IMG/VR virus record: IMGVR_UViG_3300046543_000293
Location: 1-34,427 of that record
Reading direction: 5' to 3' (one strand)
From: a virus
Length of the DNA: 34,427 nt
Both the position numbers and the translations under genes were made by a program. This document shows positions 716 to 34,427 of the stretch, one piece after another. Every line of letters begins with the position of its first letter. Position 1 is the first letter of the stretch. The notes beneath the pieces are model-generated. The model was not told where the DNA came from. It searched no databases and saw only the letters and a program-made list of their open reading frames with translations.

Positions 716-1144
716 TTACTTATGGTGCTCCGGCTTCTCTAGAAGGCTCTCTATGGGCTTGTTCGTGGCAAGGGCTCCCATGACCCTGAACATCGCCGCG
801 CGGGCCGCCTCGGGCGCTTGCATGTAGATAGCCATGGCGGCATCGGCGAAAGCCTTGGCGTCGTCGTCGGCGTCGATCACTTCCTGCGCGTGATCGGTAT
901 CCATCCACCCTTCCGGCAGTCCCATCGCTTGTTCGATGTTATTGCGCGTGACAGTGCCGATCACCTTTCGGCCGTTCTTCACTTGGGAAAGGTAGATTTT
1001 GTTGATCCCGAGCCGATCAGCGAATCGAGTCAGCATGCCCCGCTCTGGCTCGTTCGGCCAATCCTTCCAGATTTCCTGCTTGAAGCTCTCAAACAGGAAC
1101 AAGAAATTTCTCAGTCGAACGTCCTCGACCTTTTCAACAGTCAT
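716..1144 (-). CDS. C1-type phage repressor (HTH, no peptidase domain)
   Basis: A 142-residue protein with a Cro/C1-type helix-turn-helix near residues 38-70, including LTRFADRLGINKIYLSQVKN. The rest is helical and acidic. There is no LexA/S24 autopeptidase domain, so RecA-triggered self-cleavage is unlikely and induction may work differently. The ATG at 1144 is preferred over 1246 because AGGGAAGGATT precedes it. It is divergent from the Cro-like gene at 1406, with an operator-rich region between them. I infer it is the lysogeny repressor and the likely reader of the 17-bp operators scattered across the early genes. Confidence 0.75.
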   Translation of the reverse strand: MTVEKVEDVRLRNFLFLFESFKQEIWKDWPNEPERGMLTRFADRLGINKIYLSQVKNGRKVIGTVTRNNIEQAMGLPEGWMDTDHAQEVIDADDDAKAFADAAMAIYMQAPEAARAAMFRVMGALATNKPIESLLEKPEHHK

Positions 1145-1405
1145 ATCCAATCCTTCCCTTTGTAGTCCGCAAGTGGTGGTTGCGTGCGCTCGTCTGCGCT
1201 TTCTTATTGCCTCTGGGGTTCTCTGCGCGTCAGGTATCCCATACACGAATAGTGAAGCCTTTTAAAAAGAAACGCAACTGTTACGGCATCTAAACATAGC
1301 AAAATCACGCACTTACCCTAGAGTGCGTCCGAATAGTTCTATGATTCCGTGACGGGATCGGATATAGTATTAGCATCGTAACTCCACCCCGTCAGAGGAA
1401 TCCGT
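1145..1405. promoter_or_regulatory. Immunity control region with three palindromes
   Basis: The intergenic region holds two members of the 17-bp operator family: GATTCCGTGACGGGATC at 1343-1359, and GATGCCGTAACAGTTGC on the minus strand at 1290-1274. Between them is an unrelated inverted repeat, ACGCACT (1307-1313) and AGTGCGT (1322-1328). A TATAGT at 1363-1368 is a plausible rightward -10, but no good -35 is seen and the leftward promoter is not resolved. The repressor leader (1145-1265) shows nothing else. Confidence 0.6.
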
Positions 1406-1672: not shown

Positions 1673-1821
1673 ACGCCGCGCGCCGTCGGGGGAATGCCGC
1701 TGCCGCCTGGCAGATGGCAATGGCAAAGAACATCGGCCAGTTAAAGACCAAGGAAGCGAAGCAGATGCAGGCTCACATGCTCTGTGAATCGCTCAAGCGC
1801 ACCATCAGGGGCAAGGCATGA
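1669..1821 (+). CDS. Small basic phage protein, unknown (50 aa)
   Basis: A 50-residue protein rich in Arg, Lys, Ala and Met. It overlaps the preceding stop (ATGA) and ends in an ATGA overlap with the HNH gene, so it is probably translationally coupled. It is helical and positively charged with no recognised domain. The tight overlaps on both sides are the main evidence that it is real. Confidence 0.55.
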   Translation: MNAARRRGNAAAAWQMAMAKNIGQLKTKEAKQMQAHMLCESLKRTIRGKA

Positions 1822-2204
1822 AAGCACCATACAAGAACGTCATGCGCAACAGCGGCCGGAATTTCTCGTACGCGTTTCGCACCTATTTCTACGAGAAGTG
1901 CCGCGGCGCATGCGAATACTGCGGATCGTCGATCGAATCCAAAAGCGATATGAGCATCGACCATATCGTGCCGCGCACGGCAGGCGGAACCCACGAAGTT
2001 TCGAATCTTCGGGCAGCTTGCAGCTCCTGCAACACGTCCAAGGGAAACCGGGACGTCGAATACCTGCGCGCCGTCTTGCGCCTCCGTGCATCGGTTTTGG
2101 ACGGGATCATCACCCCCAATCAACTGCGAATCCTCGAGGAAGTCGGCGCCAGCCTTCCCGTTCCGGGAACGTTCGTGTTTGCATTCGAGCGGGGGCTGTC
2201 GTGA
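1818..2204 (+). CDS. HNH endonuclease
   Basis: A 128-residue protein with a complete HNH fold. It has two zinc-binding pairs (C32-C35 and C68-C71), the catalytic-type Asp-His at 48-49 (IDHIVP), Asn63 and a CNTSKG end to the motif. Such nucleases are common in phage early regions, where they serve in recombination, packaging or mobility. It sits just before the replication genes, so a role in DNA metabolism is reasonable, though a homing role cannot be excluded. ATGA-type overlaps on both sides place it in the early operon. Confidence 0.8.
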   Translation: MKAPYKNVMRNSGRNFSYAFRTYFYEKCRGACEYCGSSIESKSDMSIDHIVPRTAGGTHEVSNLRAACSSCNTSKGNRDVEYLRAVLRLRASVLDGIITPNQLRILEEVGASLPVPGTFVFAFERGLS

Positions 2205-2989
2205 GCATCATCCGCGCGGCGCGGCCGCAATCCCATTTCTACATGTTGAGCAAGTCGATCAGCGAGGATCGACGCCTGTCGTGGGCCGCGCGCGGCTTGC
2301 TCGTATTCCTGCTCGGCAAACCCGACCATTGGGAAGTGTCCGTCGCCAATCTGGTGAACGAGACAGCCGGCAGCCTGCGCGCGGGCGGTCAGACGAAGCG
2401 GGACGGCGTGAAAGCCATCCTCGCCGAACTGATGGCCGCTGGCTACCTGACGCGCAGCGACAAGCCGAAACACAATGCAGACGGCAGTTTCGCAGGGTAT
2501 GACTACATCGTCTCCGAGACGCCGACTGAGCCTGAGCAAGCCTTATCACCATCACCGGATCAGCCGTCGACGGCTCAACCGGCGCCGGTTCAACCGTCGA
2601 CGCCTCATCCGACACAAGCAAGTACTGACTCTAAGAAAGGATTGAAAACCCAAGCAAGGAAGGAACGCCGCGCTCCGCGCGCCGACCTCTCTTTCGCGGA
2701 ATGGATCGAAAACTGCAAAACCGCAGATGAGCGGGCAATCCCTGAAAACGATCCTGTTTTTGAATACGCCGATAAGGCTGGCCTTCCGCTCGACTACATC
2801 GTGCTGCACTGGAAAGAGTTCAAAGAGCGCTACGCCGCGGACGGCAAGCGCTACAAGGATTGGCGCGCGGTCTATCGCAAGTCGGTTCGTGGCAACTGGT
2901 TCCGACTCTGGTTCTTCAATGCTGACGGCATTTGCACGCTGACGACGCAGGGCCAACAGGCCAACCGCATCCACAAGGAGCAAGCATGA
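2201..2989 (+). CDS. Replication protein, helicase-loader type (DnaT/O-like)
   Basis: 262 residues from a GTG at 2201 overlapping the HNH stop; the same frame is open further upstream, but that part overlaps the HNH gene. Residues 1-110 look like a winged helix. A Pro/Thr/Ser/Gln-rich linker follows (about 112-150). The C-terminal segment, about residues 168-245, has the pattern seen in DnaT-like and phage O-like C-termini, including KRYKDWRAVYRKSVRGNWFR. It directly precedes and overlaps dnaB. I infer that it binds the origin through its N-terminus and delivers the helicase through its C-terminus. Confidence 0.7.
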   Translation: MSIIRAARPQSHFYMLSKSISEDRRLSWAARGLLVFLLGKPDHWEVSVANLVNETAGSLRAGGQTKRDGVKAILAELMAAGYLTRSDKPKHNADGSFAGYDYIVSETPTEPEQALSPSPDQPSTAQPAPVQPSTPHPTQASTDSKKGLKTQARKERRAPRADLSFAEWIENCKTADERAIPENDPVFEYADKAGLPLDYIVLHWKEFKERYAADGKRYKDWRAVYRKSVRGNWFRLWFFNADGICTLTTQGQQANRIHKEQA

Positions 2990-4356
2990 GCGCCAACGAC
3001 ATCGAACGCGCAGTCCCGCAGAGCATCGAATCCGAGCAGTCCGTCATTGGCGCCCTGCTGATCGACAACGATTCTGTCGACCGTATTGGCGACCTGCGCG
3101 CGGAGCACTTCTACCGCGCCGACCATCGCGCGATCTTTACCGAAATCCTCGCGCTGATCTCGGGCAGCGTCGGCGCTGACGTGATGACCGTCTTTGAACG
3201 CCTGCAAGCCAAGGGCCGCGCGGCCGACGTGGGCGGGCTGGCGTATCTGAACGACCTGGCGCACAGCACGCCGAGCGCGTCGAACATCGCCCGCTATGCC
3301 GACATCGTGCGCGACCGTGCGCAGAAGCGCGGCCTGCTCGCCCTGTCGCATGAGATTCAGGATTCAGTCGGCACGACGCCGGACAGCGCTGCGGTGCTGA
3401 TCGATCGCGCGTCCTCGAAGCTGGAACGGCTCGGCGAGGCGGTTGTGAAGTCTGAGCCGGTGCGCGCGTCCGACTCGCTGCAGGAATATCTCGACTACCT
3501 TGAGAACCAGATCGACGGCAAGATCAAGCCCGTTCCGACCGGCCTGACAGACTTGGATCACAAGCTCGGAGGCGGCTTCTATGGCGGCGACCTGGTTGTC
3601 GTCGCTGCGCGCCCGTCGATGGGTAAGACGGCATTCTCCCTGACGATCGCCGCCAACGTCGCAGCGACCGATCCGGTGCTGTTCCTGTCGATGGAAATGA
3701 AGAACGTCCAACTGCAGCAGCGCCTTGTGTCGGCAATGGGCGGTATCCCGATGGGCGACCTGCGCGACCCGGCAAAACTCGACAACGAACAATGGTCGCG
3801 CATCACGCACGCCGGCCAGCGCATCAACGAATTGCACCTGTTCCTCGACGATCAGCCGAACCTGACGCTTCTGGAAGTGCGCAACAAGGCGCGCGCGATC
3901 AAGCGTAAGCACGGTCTGTCGATGCTCGTTGTCGACTATCTCGGGCTCATGGCGACCGGGCAGGAAGAACGCCGCGACCTGCAGATTGGCGCGCTGACGA
4001 AGGGGCTGAAGAATTTGGCGAAGGAGCTCGACATTCCTGTCGTCCTGCTCTCGCAGCTCTCGCGCAAATGCGAGGAACGGCCGAACAAGCGCCCGCTTTC
4101 GTCCGACCTGAAGGATTCCGGCGACATCGAAGCCGACGCAGACACGATCCTGTTCCTGTACCGCGACGAGGTCTACAACCCCGATTCGATGGATCGCGGC
4201 GTCTGCGAAGTGATCTGCACGAAGCAGCGCCAGGGCGAAACCGGCATCACCGGCCTTGCATTCATCGGCGAACAGACGCGCTTTGCAGACTTGGCGCACG
4301 GTCGACAGTTCGGCCGCCAGTCGGAACAAAAGACGAAAAATAGGGGCTTCGACTGA
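2986..4356 (+). CDS. dnaB: Replicative DNA helicase DnaB
   Basis: 456 residues, full length for the family. The N-terminal DnaB domain spans about 8-110. The RecA-like motor domain holds Walker A ARPSMGKT (208-215), Walker B LVVDYLG (314-320) and the conserved VVLLSQLSR (352-360). It unwinds DNA 5' to 3' at the replication fork as a hexameric ring. The ATG at 2986 overlaps the loader stop, and the start matches the typical DnaB N-terminus (PQSIESEQSVIGALL). It is the last gene of its operon. Owning a helicase suggests replication largely independent of host loading. Confidence 0.95.
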   Translation: MSANDIERAVPQSIESEQSVIGALLIDNDSVDRIGDLRAEHFYRADHRAIFTEILALISGSVGADVMTVFERLQAKGRAADVGGLAYLNDLAHSTPSASNIARYADIVRDRAQKRGLLALSHEIQDSVGTTPDSAAVLIDRASSKLERLGEAVVKSEPVRASDSLQEYLDYLENQIDGKIKPVPTGLTDLDHKLGGGFYGGDLVVVAARPSMGKTAFSLTIAANVAATDPVLFLSMEMKNVQLQQRLVSAMGGIPMGDLRDPAKLDNEQWSRITHAGQRINELHLFLDDQPNLTLLEVRNKARAIKRKHGLSMLVVDYLGLMATGQEERRDLQIGALTKGLKNLAKELDIPVVLLSQLSRKCEERPNKRPLSSDLKDSGDIEADADTILFLYRDEVYNPDSMDRGVCEVICTKQRQGETGITGLAFIGEQTRFADLAHGRQFGRQSEQKTKNRGFD

Positions 4357-12645: not shown

Positions 12646-12824
12646 CCCACCCCACAAAGACAGCAGCTCTCACGCACCTAGGAGCGCTATGCAACGCCAA
12701 TAAGCCGACTACGGTGTTGCTGCATCAAGCGGTCGCGTCTAGCGCGGCGCTGTTTTCCACCCTAGCCGGAGAACCGGTAGAAATCAGGATCGGCTCTGTG
12801 CTGATCGCAAGGAGCGATAAATGA
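12642..12824 (+). CDS. Small phage protein, unknown (60 aa)
   Basis: 60 residues, Ala/Leu-rich, without a clear membrane span (LLHQAVASSAALFSTLAGEP). It starts in an ATGA overlap with the zinc-ribbon gene and ends in an ATGA overlap with the next. Position and coupling are the support; no family recognised. Confidence 0.5.
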   Translation: MTHPTKTAALTHLGALCNANKPTTVLLHQAVASSAALFSTLAGEPVEIRIGSVLIARSDK

Positions 12825-13288
12825 ACGACAACCATATTGCGGACGAGCGCAAGCCGGTGGCGTACGAAGTGCACTGGCCAAACGGAGAGCATGAATTAAT
12901 TTACGCCTCTGCATTGCGGATGATTAGCGATCTCGGAGATTTCACGCTTACTGAACTCTACGCCGCCCCTATTGCCCCGCGCGCGGACGCCGCGCTCGAA
13001 GGAAGCGAGCAATACCGGGTGCAAATGGCGGGGATTTCGTCGGCTGCGCTTGGCTACTGGAAAGAGGGGGACAGTATCGCGCCGGAATTCGACACTCCCG
13101 CTCTTCGCGACGTTGCAAAGCTGTACGCGAAATATGAGGCGTTGCGTGCGGACGCCGAAAAGGATGCGGCGCTGACGAATGAGCAACTAGACGCGGCCGT
13201 TTCCGCGTGGTTTGAGTGGGCCGAACTGCACGAATTCCGCGCCCGTATGCGAGCCGCAATCCTAGCCGCTAAGGAGAAGAAATCGTGA
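12821..13288 (+). CDS. Phage hypothetical protein with shared module (155 aa)
   Basis: 155 residues. The N-terminal part contains VAYEVHWPNGEHELIYAS and LTELYAAPIAP, seen in variants in many phage early proteins. The C-terminus ends in RMRAAILAAKEKKS. The next protein carries the similar segments KLFAAPIPA and FARAILAAKEPK, so the two appear to share duplicated pieces. Function unknown. Confidence 0.6.
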   Translation: MNDNHIADERKPVAYEVHWPNGEHELIYASALRMISDLGDFTLTELYAAPIAPRADAALEGSEQYRVQMAGISSAALGYWKEGDSIAPEFDTPALRDVAKLYAKYEALRADAEKDAALTNEQLDAAVSAWFEWAELHEFRARMRAAILAAKEKKS

Positions 13289-13620
13289 GCATCGATACAG
13301 ATTTCGACGGAGAAAAATGTTTCCCGCGTATTGAAGCAGCACGCCGCACTGTGAGCGGGCAGGAGGCGCCGACCGCCGAACAAGTCGAAAGGGCGTTCCT
13401 CAGTCAGTCCACTTGGACGACCATTGGATACGCGGTCAACCTGGAAGACTTCCAGTATTTGATTGCGAAATTGTTCGCCGCCCCCATTCCCGCAACGGAA
13501 ATGAGCGACGATCAAATTCGGCGCATTTGGCTGATCGAGACGGGCACAACAGAGCAGGATTCGCCGCTTGCGATTCTTGATTTCGCGCGCGCCATTCTCG
13601 CAGCAAAGGAGCCGAAGTAA
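13285..13620 (+). CDS. Phage hypothetical protein, paralogous segments to its neighbour (111 aa)
   Basis: 111 residues from a GTG overlapping the previous stop. Residues about 55-75 (DFQYLIAKLFAAPIPATE) and the end (AILDFARAILAAKEPK) resemble the neighbour at 12821. The region MSDDQIRRIW is typical of small phage modules that start D-D/E-Q-I. Function unknown. The stop codon shares its last base with the next start. Confidence 0.6.
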   Translation: MSIDTDFDGEKCFPRIEAARRTVSGQEAPTAEQVERAFLSQSTWTTIGYAVNLEDFQYLIAKLFAAPIPATEMSDDQIRRIWLIETGTTEQDSPLAILDFARAILAAKEPK

Positions 13621-14132
13621 TGGCCGGGAACAAGAAGCCGAACCGCAAGCCGCGCAAGGTGATCGAGCCGAAGAATCACGTCATGTATTTGTATGACGCC
13701 GATGCGCCGATGAAGGGCGAAGAACGGCTGGAAGTGCTGACGTCGGTTCACATGGCCGCCCTCGCCCTTTCCCGCGGCGAAGGAACCAAGAACGAATGGG
13801 ACGTAATTGTTATCGCGATGAACGTGGCGATCGTCCTGTGCGAGACGGCGGGCAATCGTGAGATCGGCCTGCGCGCGCTCTACGACACGCAGAACGCCAT
13901 GATCGACCTGTGCGAGCGCTTCCAAGCGCGCGGCAAGTTCATTCTGACCGGCGACGAACTCACAGCGATGAATGGCGGGATTCACGTATTCGAAGCGCTG
14001 GTTGCCACCGTGAGCCGTCGCCAGTACACGCGGGCATGCGCCGAATACACGAAGCGCCTCGACGCGGGAAAGGCGGTGCAGATCAGGGCCGGCAGGCAGA
14101 CAGAACGGTTCGCGCTGCGGAAGGCGGCCTAG
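13620..14132 (+). CDS. Phage hypothetical protein, helical (170 aa)
   Basis: 170 residues. A basic N-terminus (NKKPNRKPRKVIEPKNH) precedes a long helical region with ERLEVLTSVHMAALALSRGE and a regular pattern to the end. I recall similar proteins in Burkholderia and Ralstonia phages, all uncharacterised. Last gene before the partition operon. No catalytic motif seen. Confidence 0.6.
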   Translation: MAGNKKPNRKPRKVIEPKNHVMYLYDADAPMKGEERLEVLTSVHMAALALSRGEGTKNEWDVIVIAMNVAIVLCETAGNREIGLRALYDTQNAMIDLCERFQARGKFILTGDELTAMNGGIHVFEALVATVSRRQYTRACAEYTKRLDAGKAVQIRAGRQTERFALRKAA

Positions 14133-14145
14133 GCGCGCGTCACAG

Positions 14146-14247
14146 CGTATGGGCGTCCGTATGTACGCCCATACGTATATATAAGTATCTGTTGACCTTG
14201 CTGTTTGTGCAGTCTTGTTTTAGTCTATGCGCACAAATACAAACAAG
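14146..14247 (+). promoter_or_regulatory. Control region / candidate centromere before parA
   Basis: The gap holds a perfect 10-bp inverted repeat, CGTATGGGCG (14146-14155) and CGCCCATACG (14166-14175), and a second, CTTGTTT (14214-14220) with AAACAAG (14241-14247). A possible promoter, TTGCTG (14198-14203), 17 bp, TAGTCT (14221-14226), overlaps the second repeat, so its binder could autoregulate the operon. Between lies AT-rich DNA. Type Ib partition sites often lie just here. Confidence 0.5.
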
Positions 14248-14256
14248 GGAGTCGAC

Positions 14257-14907
14257 ATGCTCATAGCCGTCGCCACAGAGAAGGGTGGAGTTGGAAAGAC
14301 CACTATCGCCACAAACCTAGCCGCGTTGCGCGCAACCCATAGGAGAACGGTAAAGCTAATCGACACCGACCGGCAGGAGAGCGCCTATACATGGGGCATG
14401 CTGCGCGTCGAGAGCGAGATTGCGCCTGTTATCCGCCTGTCAAAACTGACGGGAAACATCTTTAGCGAACTAACCGCCGAGCGCGAATCCATCGACACGG
14501 TAATCGTCGACGCAGGCGGCAGGGACAGCCCAGAACTCAGAAGTGCCATTGCGGCGTGCGACGTGCTCGTGATGCCGATTAAGCCAGGGCAATTCGATAC
14601 ATGGTCGCTCGGAAAGATGGCGCAGCTCGTGCAGGCGGCGAGAAGCACAGGCAGAACCTTTCGCGCCGTTGCCGTACTCAATGGGATTTCAGCCAATCCG
14701 CAAAGCAAAGAGGCGTCGGAAATGCGCGCCGTCCTGCGTGAAATGTCTGACTATTTCTCAACGTTTGACGGCGCCATTGTCGACCGGGTTGCGTTCCGCA
14801 ATGCCGCAAGGGAAGGGCGGGGCGTCACCGAATTGGATCGGGGCATGTTCGACCAGAAGGCCGCCGACGAACTCTCACAGCTTTACGCGGAGGTGTTCCG
14901 TGACTGA
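14257..14907 (+). CDS. parA: ParA-family partition ATPase (type Ib-like)
   Basis: 216 residues from ATG 14257, behind AAGGGAG. The deviant Walker A is complete (KGGVGKTT, 9-16), with Asp36 and Asp38 in LIDTDRQ and Walker B VIVDAGG (82-88). There is no N-terminal DNA-binding domain, as in type Ib ParA. Such ATPases position low-copy plasmids by ATP-driven nucleoid binding. Codon use (aga, cta, ata, agg) is less GC-biased than in flanking genes, suggesting separate ancestry. The gene overlaps its RHH partner. Its presence points to plasmid-style maintenance of the prophage. Confidence 0.85.
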   Translation: MLIAVATEKGGVGKTTIATNLAALRATHRRTVKLIDTDRQESAYTWGMLRVESEIAPVIRLSKLTGNIFSELTAERESIDTVIVDAGGRDSPELRSAIAACDVLVMPIKPGQFDTWSLGKMAQLVQAARSTGRTFRAVAVLNGISANPQSKEASEMRAVLREMSDYFSTFDGAIVDRVAFRNAAREGRGVTELDRGMFDQKAADELSQLYAEVFRD

Positions 14908-15190
14908 ACGCGCACCACTCAGGCCGCCCGTTGTGAACTTCATCGAATCCGCGCCTGGCGGAGTGCCGCCAAAGGCTGACGAGTCAGCCGGCGAGCCGCC
15001 AGGCACCGCTGCGCGCCCCGCATTCCGAGAGCGCGAGGCAACCCGAAACATGAGTTTGAATGTTCCAAAGAGCCTGTACGAAGACCTGAGAGCCTATATG
15101 AAGCTGACCGACACGCCGATGACTGAAGTTTTGGTTGAGGGCGCGAAAAAGGAGTTGGCTCGTCTGAAGAAGCAATATGGGATTGAATGA
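14900..15190 (+). CDS. Ribbon-helix-helix partition partner (ParB-like)
   Basis: 96 residues from a GTG at 14900 overlapping the parA stop by 8 bases. The first 45 residues are Pro/Gly/Ala-rich and probably flexible; small type Ib partners use such a tail to stimulate ParA. Residues about 50-90 form a ribbon-helix-helix (RNMSLNVPKSLYEDLRAYMK, then TEVLVEGAKKEL). I infer that it binds repeats near the operon and serves as the centromere-binding and autorepressor protein. The stop overlaps the next start. Confidence 0.7.
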   Translation: MTERAPLRPPVVNFIESAPGGVPPKADESAGEPPGTAARPAFREREATRNMSLNVPKSLYEDLRAYMKLTDTPMTEVLVEGAKKELARLKKQYGIE

Positions 15191-15738
15191 TGGCCGATCA
15201 GCCGGAATTGTGGGAGGAATTGAAGGTCGAGAATCACTGGTTCCACGTCGTGCGCGCCATGATCCAGCGCGACAAGATCGCCGAAATGGGTGTGAATGCG
15301 TGGGCGGTGTACTGCGTTCTCAAAAGCTACGCCGCGCTCGATACCGGGAAATCCTATCCGGGGCGCGACGCGATTGCACAGCATGTTGGCGTTTCACTGG
15401 ATACCGTCGACCGGGCTCTCTCAAAACTCGACGAAATGGGGATCGTTGCGCGCAAGCGACTCGGGCGCAGCAATTCGTATGAACTGACGGAGCAAATACC
15501 GATGACGGCTGCCAATGGCGAGATAGCGATGCACGGCGAAGCGAAGTACGTGCCGATGCAGTTTCAACAGGTTCTAGACCAGCTGAAGGCGTTCGCGGCG
15601 AGCGGGAGTATGCAGGGAGGTCTAGAGGTCAAGATCGTCTTAAACGCCAATTTCCTGACCGGCTCGCATGCGACCGTGAACAACTACAATGCGCCGGCCG
15701 TCGTCGGGGTCGAAGTTATCCCCAAGAAGCCGGACTGA
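15187..15738 (+). CDS. HTH protein resembling plasmid replication initiators
   Basis: 183 residues. Residues about 10-100 are a winged helix-turn-helix of the HTH_36 type (YPGRDAIAQHVGVSLDTVDR, then a wing with RKRLGRSNSYEL). This fold occurs in plasmid and phage replication proteins and some regulators. The C-terminal part is Gln- and Asn-rich without a known domain. It follows the partition genes and directly precedes repeats, DnaA boxes and AT-rich DNA, so I infer that it binds this origin-like site. A purely regulatory role is the alternative. Confidence 0.55.
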   Translation: MMADQPELWEELKVENHWFHVVRAMIQRDKIAEMGVNAWAVYCVLKSYAALDTGKSYPGRDAIAQHVGVSLDTVDRALSKLDEMGIVARKRLGRSNSYELTEQIPMTAANGEIAMHGEAKYVPMQFQQVLDQLKAFAASGSMQGGLEVKIVLNANFLTGSHATVNNYNAPAVVGVEVIPKKPD

Positions 15739-15944
15739 GTTATCCCATCTAAAGACTTTAGGATATATAGAATCTATATAGTGCCGCACCCCAGCGGCGT
15801 ATTCGCCTCGATAAGCCGCACGCCAGCGGCGCATCGGAAAACGAAAGGCCGCACGCCAGCGGCTAATGGAATCTTGTCCACAGCCAGTTATCCACAGAAA
15901 CGGTGCGTAACCCTGTGCGCAATTTCCGAGTGATAAAGTCTATT
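15739..15944. other. Candidate plasmid-type replication origin
   Basis: The 206-bp gap contains an AT-rich stretch (15739-15782) with a small palindrome (ATATAGAATCTATAT, 15765-15779), three direct repeats, and two DnaA-box-like sites: TTGTCCACA (15874-15882, one mismatch) and TTATCCACA (15888-15896, exact consensus). Iterons, DnaA boxes and an AT-rich unwinding region next to a Rep-like gene are the standard parts of an iteron plasmid origin. Function is inferred. Confidence 0.55.
15783..15863 (+). repeat. Three iteron-like direct repeats, 32-33 bp apart
   Basis: GCCGCACCCCAGCGGC at 15783-15798, and GCCGCACGCCAGCGGC at 15815-15830 and 15848-15863. Start-to-start distances of 32 and 33 bp are about three helical turns, so the copies face one side of the DNA. 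Each has inner symmetry (GCCGC and GCGGC), so hairpin or dimer binding is possible. They may bind the Rep-like or the RHH protein. Confidence 0.75.
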
Positions 15945-16121
15945 ATGTCAAATCCTGCAAAGATCTTCGTTCGATTGGCGGGCGTTATATCAGTCCTAGC
16001 CATAATCGCGCTGCTGGCGGGGAGCGAGCTCGGGCGAGGAACTTGGCCGATTAGCATTGCTGGCCTGCTCTTGTGGGCGTCGAGCGAATGGGATTGGCGA
16101 AAGAGAGAAAAGAAGAAATGA
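15945..16121 (+). CDS. Small two-span membrane protein coupled to an acyltransferase
   Basis: 58 residues, starting MSNPAKIF. Two hydrophobic spans (about 8-26 and 34-46) are followed by a very basic end (WRKREKKK). The stop overlaps the acyltransferase start (ATGA), so the two are made together. It may help place or partner the acyltransferase in the inner membrane, in the way small membrane proteins accompany phage seroconversion enzymes. No family recognised. Confidence 0.55.
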   Translation: MSNPAKIFVRLAGVISVLAIIALLAGSELGRGTWPISIAGLLLWASSEWDWRKREKKK

Positions 16122-17215
16122 ACAATCGAAATTTCGGGCTCGACGTCGTTCGAATGCTCGCCATCCTGCCGGTTCTCGCTGTCCATTACACAGCGTTCGC
16201 AATCAAGGATGCGCCGCAGCTCGTCTATGTGGCGGGTGATCTCGGCGTCGAAATCTTCTTTGCCCTGAGCGGCTTCCTGATCGGCGGCATCATCCTGCGC
16301 GACTTCGAGCGCGGTTTCTCCTGGCGCGTGGCGCTGAACTTCTACGTGCGCCGCTGGATGCGCACCCTGCCGCTCTACTATGTGTTTTTTGTAGCGTCGG
16401 CATTCGTGACGATCTACGGGCTGACGCTCGACAAGGTATGGTCTGCGGAATGCCTCGCTTACCTGCTATTCCTGCAAAACCTCGCATGGCCAATGCTCGC
16501 GCAGTGGTATCACGAAAGCTGGTCGCTGGCCGTCGAGGAATGGTTCTATCTGATCTTTCCCGCGTTCTTCGCCGTGCTCGTCGGCCTGCGCGCCCGCACG
16601 CGCATTCTCGTGATTGCGTTGACGCTGATCGTCGTGCCGCTCGTGCTGCGCATCTGGACGTTTGATGCGAGCCTGTCATTCGATGACCATGTGCGCCGCA
16701 TCGTCGTGCTGCGACTCGACGCAATCGCTTTTGGCATCCTCGCAATATGGGCGGTGACGACATTCCCGAGCGGGGTGCGTTACTGGAAAAACGTCATTGG
16801 CCTGGCGGGCGCGGCCGGCGTCGTGCTGACGATCGCAATTCTGATGGGTCGCGTCGACGTCGGCGTTTTCTTCCTCCGCACATTCTCCTTCACGCTGGCA
16901 TCCGCATCATTTGCCGCGGTCGTCGTGTGGGCGTACTTCCATTCATGGGAGCACCTTGAGGCGGGAGGCGAATCCGACATAATCCGCTGGTTCAGCACGC
17001 GGTCCTATGCGCTCTATCTGTGTCACGGGAGCGTGGTGCGCACGATGCTGCATCACGGCTGGTTCGCAAAGGCGCCGCTCGTCTCGTTCCTGATCTTCTC
17101 GTCGGCGACGCTTCTAATCGCGGAGGCGGCGCACCGCCTGGTCGAGCGACCGGCAATGAGTCGCCGGCCGCGCGAACTGCATACGACGGTCAGCGGACGC
17201 GTCGCGCTTGAATAA
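16118..17215 (+). CDS. Acyltransferase 3 family protein (OafA-like), likely lysogenic conversion
   Basis: 365 residues, an inner-membrane protein with about ten hydrophobic spans. Family marks are His23 in span 1 (LAVHYTAF), SGFLIGG (51-57), the Arg motif FYVRRWMRTLPLYY (75-88) and SWSLAVEEWFYLIFP. Members move acyl, usually acetyl, groups onto exported carbohydrates such as O-antigen. In temperate phages such genes change the lipopolysaccharide of the lysogen and so block related phages. Here it lies on the plus strand against the late genes and its end overlaps the next gene by 26 bp. The target sugar is unknown. Confidence 0.85.
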   Translation: MNNRNFGLDVVRMLAILPVLAVHYTAFAIKDAPQLVYVAGDLGVEIFFALSGFLIGGIILRDFERGFSWRVALNFYVRRWMRTLPLYYVFFVASAFVTIYGLTLDKVWSAECLAYLLFLQNLAWPMLAQWYHESWSLAVEEWFYLIFPAFFAVLVGLRARTRILVIALTLIVVPLVLRIWTFDASLSFDDHVRRIVVLRLDAIAFGILAIWAVTTFPSGVRYWKNVIGLAGAAGVVLTIAILMGRVDVGVFFLRTFSFTLASASFAAVVVWAYFHSWEHLEAGGESDIIRWFSTRSYALYLCHGSVVRTMLHHGWFAKAPLVSFLIFSSATLLIAEAAHRLVERPAMSRRPRELHTTVSGRVALE

Positions 17216-27699: not shown

Positions 27700-29120
27700 G
27701 TTCTGGCTCTCGTGACGTCAATCCACGCGCCGTTAAGCGCGGTCTTGACTGGCACGGACCACGAGAGTTCGAATACCCGGTCGCGCGCGTAGCCGAGGCG
27801 CTGGAACTGGATCGACGTCAGGTATTCGCCAGCCTTGCCGAGCGATGCGACAACCCAATTGCCCCAACTCGCGCCGCGGTCGTCGGACCAGCGCAGGCGC
27901 ACTTCGGGCGGTGCGGAGTCATCCGGCAAACCGTTGCCGACTTCCATGTCTGCCACGAACTGACGGAACAGAACGCGGTTGCCGTCCGATCCGCTGATAT
28001 GCGGAAAGGAGCGGACACGTTCAATCGTGGCGCCGTTGTCGGTGTAGTTGTTCGGATCGAGCGCATAGACGGCGCCCGTCTCGAAGTCGCCGACAAGGTT
28101 GCGGCCGGCGTTAAACGAGTGGCAGTTCATGCGATGCCGGCCGAGCGTGCCGTCTGCTTCCAGAAATGCGCGCTGGTGCCATTGGCCGGTTGCCGTGTCG
28201 AAGCACCACGTTTTGTTGGCCGTCGGGAAGGTCAGCACGTAGAAGCCATGCCCGCCCTGCAGATACGAGAAGCCGAACGCGTCGTCGATCCGGCTGTAGG
28301 TCTGGAACTCCTGCTCCATCGCATGCGTCGAGATACGCTCTGCGGCATAGTTCCGCCCGGCAAACACGACGCCCTGCCCTTGCAAATCCTGCCCGAGCCA
28401 GAACAGCGCAAGATCGATCTTGGCGATTGACGCCTTGGCTGCGCATCCGTGCTCGATGTAGACGCCAGGCATGCGGCCGAACGTAAAGTCGGACGCGCCG
28501 GTGTTGTACCAGACCTCAGTCGTTTGCTCGCCAAACAGCCATATTTCGCGATGCATGACCGCCGCGGCAACGAGGTTGTCCGGATACGTGGACTTGCTCG
28601 CGATGTCGAGCGAATCGAACGTGATGTCGTTGAACTTCGAGATATAGAAGTGCTGCGTGCCCGGCTGATTGAACACAAAATAGCCGTCGACGTAATCGAC
28701 GCGATCGGAGCCGTAGAATGCCGGATCGCTGCACGCGGCGAGCAGGTTTTTCGCAATGTCGATCGTGAAGCCGGTCGCCGTGCCGTCAACCAGAAACGCG
28801 TATGTGCCGTTATCGATGATCGATACCGGCCCTGTCTGCGTCGACAGGATGCCGATCTGCGTATAGACGTTCGATTTGTCGACCGCGTAGACGTTTTCGC
28901 CCACCACGTCATAGCGCTGGCCGTTCGTCGCGGTGTAGATCGCGCGGCATTCACCGCTTACGGGCGGCGTCGACACGAGAGTCAGGCCGGGCGTCGGATA
29001 GTGCGTCGTCGGCGCCGCGGCATCTTGCGGGTTATTCTCGGGATACAGATTTACGCAGCGCTGAGCGTCGGCGATGATGCTGCGAGCCGCATAAGCGCCG
29101 CCATTCAGAGGGATTCGCAT
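27696..29120 (-). CDS. Packaged-DNA stabilisation / head completion protein (P22 gp10-like)
   Basis: 474 residues, the length of P22 gp10. The start, RIPLNGGAYAARSIIADAQR followed by CVNLYPE, is characteristic, and beta-propeller-like repeats run through the protein. Gp10 forms a hexameric hub that closes the portal vertex after packaging and binds the tailspikes and needle. It follows the gp4-like gene, separated only by a homing endonuclease. It shares one base with the stop of that endonuclease. Confidence 0.85.
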   Translation of the reverse strand: MRIPLNGGAYAARSIIADAQRCVNLYPENNPQDAAAPTTHYPTPGLTLVSTPPVSGECRAIYTATNGQRYDVVGENVYAVDKSNVYTQIGILSTQTGPVSIIDNGTYAFLVDGTATGFTIDIAKNLLAACSDPAFYGSDRVDYVDGYFVFNQPGTQHFYISKFNDITFDSLDIASKSTYPDNLVAAAVMHREIWLFGEQTTEVWYNTGASDFTFGRMPGVYIEHGCAAKASIAKIDLALFWLGQDLQGQGVVFAGRNYAAERISTHAMEQEFQTYSRIDDAFGFSYLQGGHGFYVLTFPTANKTWCFDTATGQWHQRAFLEADGTLGRHRMNCHSFNAGRNLVGDFETGAVYALDPNNYTDNGATIERVRSFPHISGSDGNRVLFRQFVADMEVGNGLPDDSAPPEVRLRWSDDRGASWGNWVVASLGKAGEYLTSIQFQRLGYARDRVFELSWSVPVKTALNGAWIDVTRART

Positions 29121-29740
29121 CAGTAGGGTCTTTTAAGAATTGGATCGAGCAATCGCTCTATCGGGACGCCTCGCCATACGCGATGACGCATCGTTTTAAG
29201 CGGAACGCCCGAGATTTCAGCGGCTTCCCTGATCGTCATCTCGCCTTTCAAGGTCATGATCGTTGGATGGCTCCTGTTGATCCCTTGCTCAGTAGGCGTC
29301 GCCCATCGGCAGTTCGAGGGCTCGTAATCTCCGTCGTTGTCAATACGGTCAATGGACAGGCCGCTCTTATATGTTGCAGCCATGTCCGCATGGAAGTTCG
29401 CGAACGCTTGCCACCGGTCGCAGACTTTGATCCCTCGCCCGCCATACCGATGGAACATCTCGTGATTAGGATTCGCGCAACGCGCCTTCATCCCACTCCA
29501 CACGACGCTCAGTCGCGACTTGGCCATTCCGTGCGTACGCGCCTTTGATGCTGAAACTTCCTTTCTGCGGCAGCCGCACGACGTTGAGACGCCCTTTCTA
29601 AGGCTTGGGCCTGCGACCAGCCGCTTTTCTCCGCACTCGCACTCGCAGTTCCAGCCGTAGTGCTTCCCGAGCTTTTCGCCGATTCCGACAACGGTCCATC
29701 GCCCGAACTTCATGCCGGTCAAATCAATCAGGTTCTTCAC
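29120..29740 (-). CDS. HNH-type homing endonuclease, minus strand
   Basis: 206 residues from a GTG at 29740. An N-terminal zinc-finger-like part (CECECGEKRLVAGPSLRKG, then SCGCRRK) precedes the nuclease part with YGGRGIKVCDRW, SIDRIDNDGDYEPSNCRW and ATPTEQGINR, a family of free-standing phage HNH endonucleases. The C-terminal part has a helix-turn-helix-like segment (IREAAEISGVPLKTMRHRV) for DNA binding. It lies between the gp4-like and gp10-like genes. Its Shine-Dalgarno lies in the loop of a hairpin at 29740-29766. Confidence 0.85.
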   Translation of the reverse strand: MKNLIDLTGMKFGRWTVVGIGEKLGKHYGWNCECECGEKRLVAGPSLRKGVSTSCGCRRKEVSASKARTHGMAKSRLSVVWSGMKARCANPNHEMFHRYGGRGIKVCDRWQAFANFHADMAATYKSGLSIDRIDNDGDYEPSNCRWATPTEQGINRSHPTIMTLKGEMTIREAAEISGVPLKTMRHRVWRGVPIERLLDPILKRPY

Positions 29741-31626: not shown

Positions 31627-32835
31627 TCATCGAACGATTTTTACCGCAAGTTCCGGGTAAATCGCGGCGTAGCCATACAGCACGTCGATACGGCAAGGAA
31701 CGGTGTCCGTGCCGATCGCGTACTGGCGGCTGATACGCATCGAAATGCCCTTGTGCATGCGACGCGCGCCCCATGCGCCGTACTGCGCGACATCTTCCAA
31801 GTCGGCGGTCACGAGCGTGAACGCGTCTTTGTGATAGCCGAGGTTCGCGCTGTATTGCGTCGATGCAACGACGTCCCACGTCACCACAGCCGCGTTCGCC
31901 GGGCCTGCCGAAACGGTCTGGTACTGCTGGTTCGATGCCGCGGTGTTGATCGCCGGGAAGATCGACAGCGTTGCGTTGCCCGAGCCGTCTGCCGTTGCGT
32001 CAGCAGTGACGACAAACTGGCGCAGCACGCCGGTCGTCTGACGGTTCTGCGGGTTCACGCCGAACACGCCGGCGATAGTGAACACGTCGCCCTTCTTGAC
32101 CGTGGCAGCAGCGCCCAGGCCCGTCACGAGCAGCGACGAACCGGTTTGGCCTGCGCCGGAAACGGTGCCGTTGGTGCGCGTGCCAGTCGTGAACACGTTG
32201 ACGTTCTGGTCCATGCCGATGTCGAAGCCGAGGCCGGACGGCGAGAAGATGCCCGACTCGTATTGCGCGCCGACCTTGTTCGACGGGTTGAACAGGCCAG
32301 CAGCAGCCTTGACCATCGAGCCGTTCGTCGCCGGGTCCCACACGACGGTGCGCTGACCATCGCGCGGTGCCGCTTCGTTGTCGAGCTTGACGCCCGCATT
32401 CAGCAGAACCGAGATATCGTTCGGCGTGGTGCCGACCGTGCCGATGCTGTTTGCAACGTTGCCCGCGAGCGCGAGGCCGTCGAAGTCGATCTTGTTGGCG
32501 ATCGTCGCCATTGCCGGCTTGATGTAGCGGTCGGCGAACTCGTCGACAACCAGCGTCAGTTCTTGCGAGCTGAACGTGAAGTCAACGTGAAACTGGGTCG
32601 TCAGCGTGATCGGAACCGAAGTTTCGTTCACGTTTTCGAGGTTCAGTGCCGGGCCGGTCGTACCGACAAAGCGGTTCGGCTTACGTGCGTTGACGGTCGA
32701 GCCGATCTTCGCGCCGCTGACAGCGAATTCCTTGCTGTATTCGCGGTTGATGCGCGAGGAGAACGTCAGGTTGTTCTCAAGAATCATCAGCGATTCGTCG
32801 AGAATCTTGGTCGGGGTGAGAAGCGTATTTGCCAT
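31627..32835 (-). CDS. Major capsid protein, P22 coat family
   Basis: 402 residues. The start (MANTLLTPTKILDESLMILE), NREYSKEFAVSGAKIGSTV and the long middle insertion with KKGDVFTIAGVFGVNP and QFVVTADATADGSGN are typical of the P22-like coat (HK97 fold with I-domain). It builds the T=7 shell with the scaffold protein encoded just upstream. Three bases separate it from the scaffold gene. Gene length is slightly below P22 coat (430 aa). Confidence 0.9.
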   Translation of the reverse strand: MANTLLTPTKILDESLMILENNLTFSSRINREYSKEFAVSGAKIGSTVNARKPNRFVGTTGPALNLENVNETSVPITLTTQFHVDFTFSSQELTLVVDEFADRYIKPAMATIANKIDFDGLALAGNVANSIGTVGTTPNDISVLLNAGVKLDNEAAPRDGQRTVVWDPATNGSMVKAAAGLFNPSNKVGAQYESGIFSPSGLGFDIGMDQNVNVFTTGTRTNGTVSGAGQTGSSLLVTGLGAAATVKKGDVFTIAGVFGVNPQNRQTTGVLRQFVVTADATADGSGNATLSIFPAINTAASNQQYQTVSAGPANAAVVTWDVVASTQYSANLGYHKDAFTLVTADLEDVAQYGAWGARRMHKGISMRISRQYAIGTDTVPCRIDVLYGYAAIYPELAVKIVR

Positions 32836-33942: not shown

Positions 33943-34427
33943 TTATTGAGCGGGCAAAGAAAAACCCGCACTAGGCGGGCTCGGTTGTTGTTGCATCTGC
34001 TGCGATGGGTCAGGCGGTGGTTCGCCTTGCGGCGCACCTTCCGGCGAGCCGGTCTGCATCATCTGCATGACGACTTGCGTTGCGACGTGCGCCACGACTT
34101 GAGGATCGAGCGGCTGGCCGAGCGCTTGCAGGCGCTTGGTTTCGCTGTCGTAGGCTTTGATGCTGATTTCCTGCGCATCACTGCCCTGCTTCGCGTTCTG
34201 CAGTTCCTGCGTCAAGTGCTCGATCATCTGGCCCATCTGCTGCATCTTCTGCTGCATGTCCTGCTCTTGCGGGCTCGGACCTTCGCCCAAGATCGCCGGA
34301 GAGATCGTGCGATGCAGACGTTCAGCCACTTCATCAGCCATCGGGAAGTCAGCAGCCTTGAACAGCAGGTCGCCGGCAACCTTCATCAGTTCCTGATCCT
34401 GGCTCATGATCTGCGTGAGCGCGTTGA
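33943..34427 (-). CDS. Portal protein, C-terminal part (cut by the window edge)
   Basis: The frame is open to the right edge, so this is the 3' end of a longer gene; about 160 codons are visible. The visible part is helical: KVAGDLLFKAADFPMADEVA, then a long Gln/Met-rich coiled coil (MQQKMQQMGQMIEHLTQELQ) and a Pro/Gln-rich tail. In P22-like portals the C-terminus is a helical barrel reaching into the capsid. Position before scaffold and coat supports the call. The rest and the terminase genes should lie to the right. Confidence 0.75.
   Translation of the reverse strand, partial: NALTQIMSQDQELMKVAGDLLFKAADFPMADEVAERLHRTISPAILGEGPSPQEQDMQQKMQQMGQMIEHLTQELQNAKQGSDAQEISIKAYDSETKRLQALGQPLDPQVVAHVATQVVMQMMQTGSPEGAPQGEPPPDPSQQMQQQPSPPSAGFSLPAQ
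33960..33980 (-). terminator. Hairpin at the end of the portal gene
   Basis: On the minus strand CCCGC (33979-33975) and GCGGG (33969-33965) form a 5-bp stem with a 5-nt loop, followed by five T. It lies within the last codons of the portal gene and may partly end transcription, lowering expression of the genes downstream. Confidence 0.5.

Follow-up and report, generated by a model that had tools for sequence, protein, structure and literature searches.

How does a phage of P22 type that matches neither of two integrase families stay with its host? The question is raised by the 34,427-base virus record IMGVR_UViG_3300046543_000293, analysed here at its full length and called the window, in which a parA gene, a small partner gene, a gene for a winged-helix protein, an origin-like region and a dif-like site follow one another. 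Judged by its genes, the window is a 34-kb piece of a P22-type phage; it is without end repeats, so part of the phage genome is missing from it. The answer favoured here, with good confidence, is that positions 14146-15953 would be a maintenance unit by which the prophage persists as a circular plasmid of low copy number, its partition cassettes being exchangeable. That the phage might be kept as a low-copy plasmid was already the original prediction, and comparison (circular relatives, a helix-turn-helix (HTH) protein with repeats on a plasmid, and a Rep_3 swap) lends it support. What was observed is gene content and order, their conservation, the swaps, and no matches to the two integrase families. 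The partition part and its border are as follows.

13620..14132, + strand: left-border gene of the exchangeable partition cassette, conserved, function unknown (phrog_20828, 1e-19)
14146..14175, no strand: inverted repeat with 11-bp arms and an 8-bp loop, candidate partition operator or centromere (shuffle test)
14257..14907, + strand: parA, 216 amino acids (aa), ParA ATPase of type Ib size (alternative ATG start at 14227)
14900..15190, + strand: small partner gene, 96 aa, ribbon-helix-helix (RHH)-like (GTG start; 8-nt overlap with parA)

ParA does carry the complete deviant Walker A motif ascribed to it (EKGGVGKTT, near the N-terminus). It matches PHROG ParA (4e-37), Pfam AAA_31/CbiA (2e-12 and 5e-12), plasmid ParF 4dzz (E 4.9e-7) and the NCBIfam ParA partition ATPase, the last at 1.7e-42 yet with 145 bits against a cut-off of 180. 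A short ParA (about 200-220 aa) with a deviant Walker A and no N-terminal HTH is of type Ib, and such is the protein found; the position and size of the small gene likewise fit a type Ib partner. For that gene the overlap with parA stands as claimed; its RHH identity is less firm. Neither Pfam nor PHROGs nor NCBIfam yields a match for it, its PDB matches are at chance level only (E 0.84), and a low-confidence model (mean pLDDT 58.7) has a disordered N-terminal tail and helices at 57-69 and 74-93, from which, together with inspection, the C-terminal part may be RHH-like. Divergent counterparts are present in other cassette types, and complete cassettes each have ParA and then the small gene, in the same order. 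The arm length of the window's inverted repeat was reached in 0 of 500 shuffles, and that of the repeat before parA in relatives in 0 (L012), 3 (L014), 10 (L011), 35 (L005) and 59 (L006) of 500; a universal centromere repeat before parA was rejected, the repeat being undistinctive in some cassettes by the same test. Codon use, offered earlier as a sign that parA was acquired, turned out not to be distinctive: ParA is a poor fit to the pooled use, yet of 25 genes NinB and one HNH gene fit still less well.

Directly downstream come the elements of a proposed replicon.

15187..15738, + strand: winged-helix protein, 183 aa, proposed plasmid replication initiator (HTH_36, 6.7e-8; 4-nt overlap with the small gene)
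15739..15782, + strand: conserved AT-rich element with GAGTTATCCC motif, candidate unwinding element (alignment of relatives)
15783..15798, + strand: dyad iteron 1, GCCGC-N6-GCGGC, 16 bp (dyad scan)
15815..15830, + strand: dyad iteron 2, 16 bp (dyad scan)
15848..15863, + strand: dyad iteron 3, 16 bp (dyad scan)
15874..15882, + strand: DnaA box with one mismatch, TTGTCCACA (box scan)
15888..15896, + strand: perfect DnaA box, TTATCCACA (box scan)

The overlapping HTH protein, the iteron-like repeats and the DnaA boxes had all been noticed before and are borne out. The winged-helix protein is most likely a plasmid initiator, because of its homologue on the Polaromonas plasmid pA29BJ2, the layout of the distant locus L081 and the Rep_3 gene found in its slot in record G016. 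It is 92-98% identical across ten relatives aligned, and the generic HTH_36 is its sole curated label above cut-off in Pfam, PHROGs and NCBIfam. The window and its close relatives hold the sequence features of an iteron-type theta replicon (Rep gene, repeats, AT-rich element, DnaA boxes). The window's dyads are spaced 32 and 33 bp apart, and three dyads with the same arms arose in 0 of 2000 dinucleotide shuffles. At L081 the same layout recurs with a third dyad sequence and a period of 33/33; in L085 and L086 the dyads are imperfect but keep the 33-bp period, and two DnaA-type boxes accompany them; L097 has several dyads of less regular spacing. The repeats of L085, L086 and L097 need looser matching than the exact-dyad scan, and a universal exact-dyad triple was rejected, since outside the close family that scan finds L037 and L081 only (L082 being the same record as L081). 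Small plasmids of Klebsiella and Enterobacter (3.3-9.5 kb) give weak winged-helix matches to L081, about 31% over 41-48%; on plasmids of that size such a protein would be an obvious initiator candidate.

Is the integrase merely hidden in the part of the genome that the window lacks? In a profile search PF00589 and PF00239 matched none of 17 records, the window included; the controls for the integrase profiles were positive in 14/14 and 10/14 records. The earlier statement that the 34 kb hold no integrase thus stands for both families, and through the relatives it reaches the rest of the genome. Three (G003, G010 and G016) of six records whose ends were compared have identical 127-base ends, as in circular assemblies, giving circles of about 39.6, 41.3 and 59.1 kb, and G003 spans the whole map, its end and start genes adjoining each other in the window. 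As these circular relatives have no matches to the two families, the missing part of the window genome probably hides no integrase. Use of XerCD remains compatible with these absences. Near the parA-RHH-winged-helix block of two distant records lies a tyrosine recombinase (G018, 112 kb, at 68525-69010; G019, 15 kb, at 12649-13134), possibly a resolvase or an integrase.

The relatives also show what is constant and what is exchanged. The winged-helix protein found 15 relative loci in IMG/VR, and Rep DNA (88-97%) and origin DNA (87-98%) match the window in all 15, four of which (L010, L015, L016, L017) cover Rep and origin only partly. Nine loci show both the partition cassette and the left-border gene, the latter 76-90% identical in DNA in the 9 of 15 relatives that extend to it; L007, L015, L016 and L017 begin too late for the cassette. 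Only L003 and L004 among the nine carry the window's cassette, the other seven being unmatched to it at the DNA level. A second type is found in L006, L010, L012, L013 and L014 (ParA of L012 is 36% identical to that of the window) and a third in L005 and L011 (ParA of L005, 19%); L009 has the third type without the left border, as does L008, judged from its small gene. With a constant Rep and three dissimilar partition cassettes, partition and replication incompatibility are separated in nature.

Exchange of the replicon itself is seen in two circular phages with P22-type portals, G016 (59,179 bases) and G021 (59,838 bases), of which 45,421 of 59,838 bases can be aligned, at 84%.

L056-L058 and L109-L111: slot loci of G016 and G021, the replicon swapped between alignable flanks

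In G016 the slot is taken by a Rep_3 initiator (PF01051, 5.8e-33), accompanied at its start by four GGAACA repeats and a DnaA box; in G021 it is taken by a winged-helix gene with dyad-like repeats. HTH_36 is matched in 7/8 records, all except G016, and Rep_3 in 1/14, G016 alone, with no match in the window. Such a swap in alignable phages amounts to a natural experiment on initiator exchange, and it points to a replication initiator unnamed in Pfam, PHROGs and NCBIfam. The winged-helix block occurs, moreover, in circular records not of P22 type (G018, G020 and G022, with a terminase match and no P22 portal match). Behind the G021 origin (L086, from about 8860) a frame may, judged by eye, resemble the start of a primase-polymerase.

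Behind the window's origin lies a feature absent from the original prediction, with cargo genes following it.

15926..15953, + strand: dif-like site, XerC-type arm CCGAGTGATAA, 6-bp centre AGTCTA, XerD-type arm TTATGTCAAAT (pattern scan)
15945..16121, + strand: 58-aa cargo open reading frame (ORF), its ATG inside the XerD-type arm (reading frame)
16118..17215, + strand: cargo acyltransferase (PF01757, 4.3e-24)

For comparison, E. coli dif is GGTGCGCATAATGTATATTATGTTAAAT and the predicted dif of F. alni CACGCCGATAATGCACATTATGTCAAGT (PMC3025954). The XerD-type arm agrees with E. coli dif at 10/11 positions, and the spacing of 6 is in the dif-type range of 6-8. A pattern written after the site was seen, RATAA-N6-TTATGTYAAA, occurs once in the window and in 0/100 shuffles. 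All 14 relatives that extend far enough have a dif-like site behind Rep. In G016, G021 and L096 such a site lies near Rep, that of G021 being between Rep and the dyads; at the site G016 and G021 have a 27-base stretch 96% identical though their Rep and origin differ. The simplest reading is that the site probably serves multimer resolution by host XerC/XerD.

The site is also where cargo changes. In a comparison of the flanks in the window and 13 relatives (L004 left out), 30 close-match pairs were listed: in 17 of them 55-60 of 60 bases agree before the site and 10-22 of 60 just after it, in 13 both sides are identical, and seven different sequences after the site were counted. The stretch 15954-17215 is matched in none of the 14 relatives extending past the site (15 searched), and its acyltransferase is a probable means of surface modification by the prophage. 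If such prophages do rely on an Xer site worked by the host and not on a recombinase of their own, it would be easy to see how they remain monomeric and acquire surface-modifying genes. The XerD-type arm (15943-15953 in the window, and in relatives) holds an ATG, at which a long cargo frame starts in L003 (383 aa) and L007 (334 aa) and shorter ones in the others. Between origin and site, L006 has extra sequence with a short reading frame (3882-4316), as have L007, L008, L009, L011, L015 and L016; ahead of it stands what looks on inspection like an incomplete copy of the site, as though the extra sequence had been captured between two Xer sites.

Could host XerC/XerD instead integrate the phage at the chromosomal dif, in the manner of an integrative mobile element exploiting Xer (IMEX), with the par-rep block serving a transient circular stage only? 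A variable cargo gene beside the dif-like site, as beside many attP sites, would suit this, as would the lack of an integrase match and the finding, at the threshold applied, of one dif-like site per genome in the circular G003, G010, G016 and G021. IMEX phages are moreover established (PMC5357621). We nevertheless regard the proposal as unlikely. The 6-bp centre differs among close relatives (AGTCTA, ACTCTA, ATACTA, ACATCA), unlike a site bound to match one host dif, a point tempered by the tolerance of VGJphi-type attP for mismatches (same source). In 14 of the 15 relatives the contig continues across the site, and the phage DNA to its left and right resembles that of the window; L010 ends before it. 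An IMEX, moreover, needs no full Rep-origin unit.

Or is the winged-helix protein a regulator, or a second centromere-binding protein acting on the dyads, with replication from elsewhere, for instance the O-like gene in the left half of the window? Its top PHROG, phrog_28562 (6.7e-16), is of unknown function, replication-initiation PHROGs follow only weakly, from 8.1e-8, and fold matches are mostly to generic winged-helix regulators, the partition protein TubR (E 2.9e-3, with a low-confidence model) among them. The fold search as such was uninformative, with no match at E 0.001 or better. We find the idea quite improbable: Rep_3 sits in the winged-helix slot of G016, which has no HTH_36 match, no initiator candidate other than the winged-helix protein was seen among the annotations of pA29BJ2 (whose gene table is incomplete), and the dyads are adjoined by DnaA boxes and an AT-rich element.

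Diversified partition cassettes beside a constant Rep and origin might also be expected of an incompatibility weapon against resident plasmids or superinfecting relatives, carried by an otherwise strictly lytic phage; the repressor-like gene and the acyltransferase cargo suggest lysogeny, the complete origin is conserved, and this explanation is very improbable. That the block was picked up by chance or is decaying, and serves no function, is hardly credible, as the somewhat atypical codon use is its sole favourable point and against it stand Rep DNA of 88-97% identity versus 76-90% in two other measured regions, with cargo unmatched, and reading frames intact in all three dissimilar cassette types.

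In the maintenance unit proposed here, ParA and the small RHH-like protein would segregate the element via the upstream inverted repeat, and the winged-helix protein would bind the three dyads, recruit DnaA to the adjacent boxes and open the AT-rich element, such plasmid replication being separate from O-like lytic replication. Host XerC/XerD would probably resolve multimers at the dif-like site behind the origin; provided in this way with partition, replication and resolution, the phage would therefore need no integrase. The partition part would be traded between relatives as a cassette with Rep and origin staying in place, and cargo such as the acyltransferase would be replaced directly after the Xer-type site. 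The biochemical roles, the plasmid state and the low copy number we infer, as we do each of the three functions, with certainty decreasing from partition by the cassette through replication by the winged-helix protein to resolution by XerCD. Relatives without integrase matches make a plasmid lifestyle of P22-type phage directly testable.

Several observations weigh against this proposal. The small gene is without a family match, neither structure model is strong, and the inverted repeat ahead of parA does not stand out in L003, L010, G016 and G021 (117-419 of 500 shuffles). Among seven distant HTH records, the searches made brought up no nearby repeats in L083 and L084 (identical in proteins and downstream DNA), and in L096 a pair of DnaA boxes stands without a set of three repeats; the exact-dyad scan also misses L085, L086, L097 and the Acinetobacter locus L038. 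The XerC-type arm agrees with E. coli dif at only 4/11 positions, 23/100 shuffles contain the XerD-type arm by itself if one mismatch is tolerated, no dif-like site was found in the stretches of L037, L038, L081, L084 and L097, and that of L085 is 3.5 kb from Rep. A circular map fits a headful phage genome too, so that circularity alone is no proof of a plasmid, and the tyrosine recombinase mentioned above is present in two of seven distant records. Finally, two pattern scans of 84,980 species genomes, made with winged-helix alignments, found no close relative; they matched 64 and 47 stretches, none of them a relative.

More widely, and only tentatively, since we hold it to be somewhat less probable than its negation, the winged-helix protein, together with its triple of dyads recurring every 33 bp, may represent an unnamed initiator family common to bacterial plasmids and several unlike circular phages. 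The dif-like site would then be a XerCD-driven junction trading cargo and sometimes whole replicons, comparable to the pdif modules of plasmids, with partition, replication and cargo cassettes plugged around one host-operated site.

The rest of the window is that of a P22-type phage. Its left half holds recombination and replication genes and its right half P22-type head, connector, ejection and tail proteins, all by PHROG matches.

716..1246, - strand: repressor-like regulator (phrog_5736, 4.7e-8; phrog_12107, 1.5e-7)
1784..2989, + strand: O-like lytic replication gene candidate, apart from the plasmid replicon (phrog_4707, 2.9e-7; phrog_270, 4.7e-7)
31627..32835, - strand: major head protein, P22-type (phrog_283, 3.6e-79)
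33943..34425, - strand: portal protein C-terminus, P22-type, truncated at the window end (phrog_156, 5.7e-5)

The best PHROG of the O-like gene is phrog_11718 (1.2e-11), of unknown function. The terminase phrog_2 has no match in the window; the TerL and portal that the window lacks are present in the circular relative G003, whose portal matches PF16510 at 2.2e-176 and is at its end 82% identical to the window's portal end. P22-type portal, scaffold, coat and tail-accessory proteins are all matched, if the full portal of G003 is counted, the window holding the end only. In G010 (L042/L043; 41,393 bases) Rep and origin are common with the window, and the P22-type virion set is far more divergent and in another gene order, its coat being about 32% identical over 193 of 402 residues; the virions of G006 and G013 are also more divergent from the window. 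Related HNH endonuclease genes (window 29120-29740 and G003 3964-4332, 38% over 123 residues) stand at different genome positions, which suggests homing.

How, then, does this locus compare with known systems? Megablast with the stretches searched found no close DNA relative among phages or plasmids. At the protein level plasmid databases did yield the order parA, small ORF, HTH gene. Polaromonas pA29BJ2 has it (parA 48%, HTH 33%), and behind the HTH gene follow a triple of dyads at 33/32 bp and as many DnaA boxes; unlike the window, it is a 104-kb plasmid with metabolic genes, another dyad sequence and its own tyrosine recombinases, and neither phage structural genes nor another initiator are annotated in its incomplete gene table. 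Acinetobacter pRBH2-3, a 75-kb circular plasmid, has the same order but an HTH protein 29% identical over 68% of the query, no exact dyad triple and an annotated recombinase family gene; in the phage record vB_IME_Ab2712 (74.6 kb) the HTH match has equal coverage and identity. The portal is matched by 17 records of PLSDB. Two P22-type ones considered as parallels, from A. seifertii (37 kb) and E. coli (40 kb), were rejected: they carry integrases and no annotated parA, and may thus be excised prophages, not phage-plasmids. PAE2, the best-ranked phage portal match, was set aside as an integrase-bearing phage without annotated parA.

Among phages, Sodalis phiSG1, which we take to be the same as pSG3, has annotated P22-type head genes together with ParA and a Rep gene; it differs in its annotated integrases and a ParA only 29% identical, and the HTH protein, which matched two phage records, did not match this one. 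pSG3 is extrachromosomal in Sodalis (PMC3091646). Burkholderia phage KS14 bears parA, as do FLC5 and FLC10 (ParA 32-36% identical), and its prophage was isolated as a plasmid in Burkholderia; it differs from the window in its virion, which is P2-like, and in having a serine recombinase (PMC3091744), and its annotated replication gene is apart from parA on the opposite strand. In cluster A mycobacteriophages a partition cassette replaces the integration cassette, RepA is present in some and ParB is diverse; their hosts are actinobacterial, they have one ParA family, and no repeats were identified at RepA origins (PMC7157519). Metagenomic phages with ParA have been described from glaciers (PMC4490671). 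Among the matches listed in searches of the open-access literature, none was seen to describe a P22-type phage-plasmid free of integrase, this winged-helix initiator family or a phage-plasmid with a dif-like site; PMC9928086, PMC10993401 and PMC6799933, which hold both 'P22-like' and 'phage-plasmid', lie outside the comparison. Plasmid prophages are already well known; what looks new is the combination of a P22-type virion, a swappable partition cassette, a little-known probable initiator and a dif-like site.

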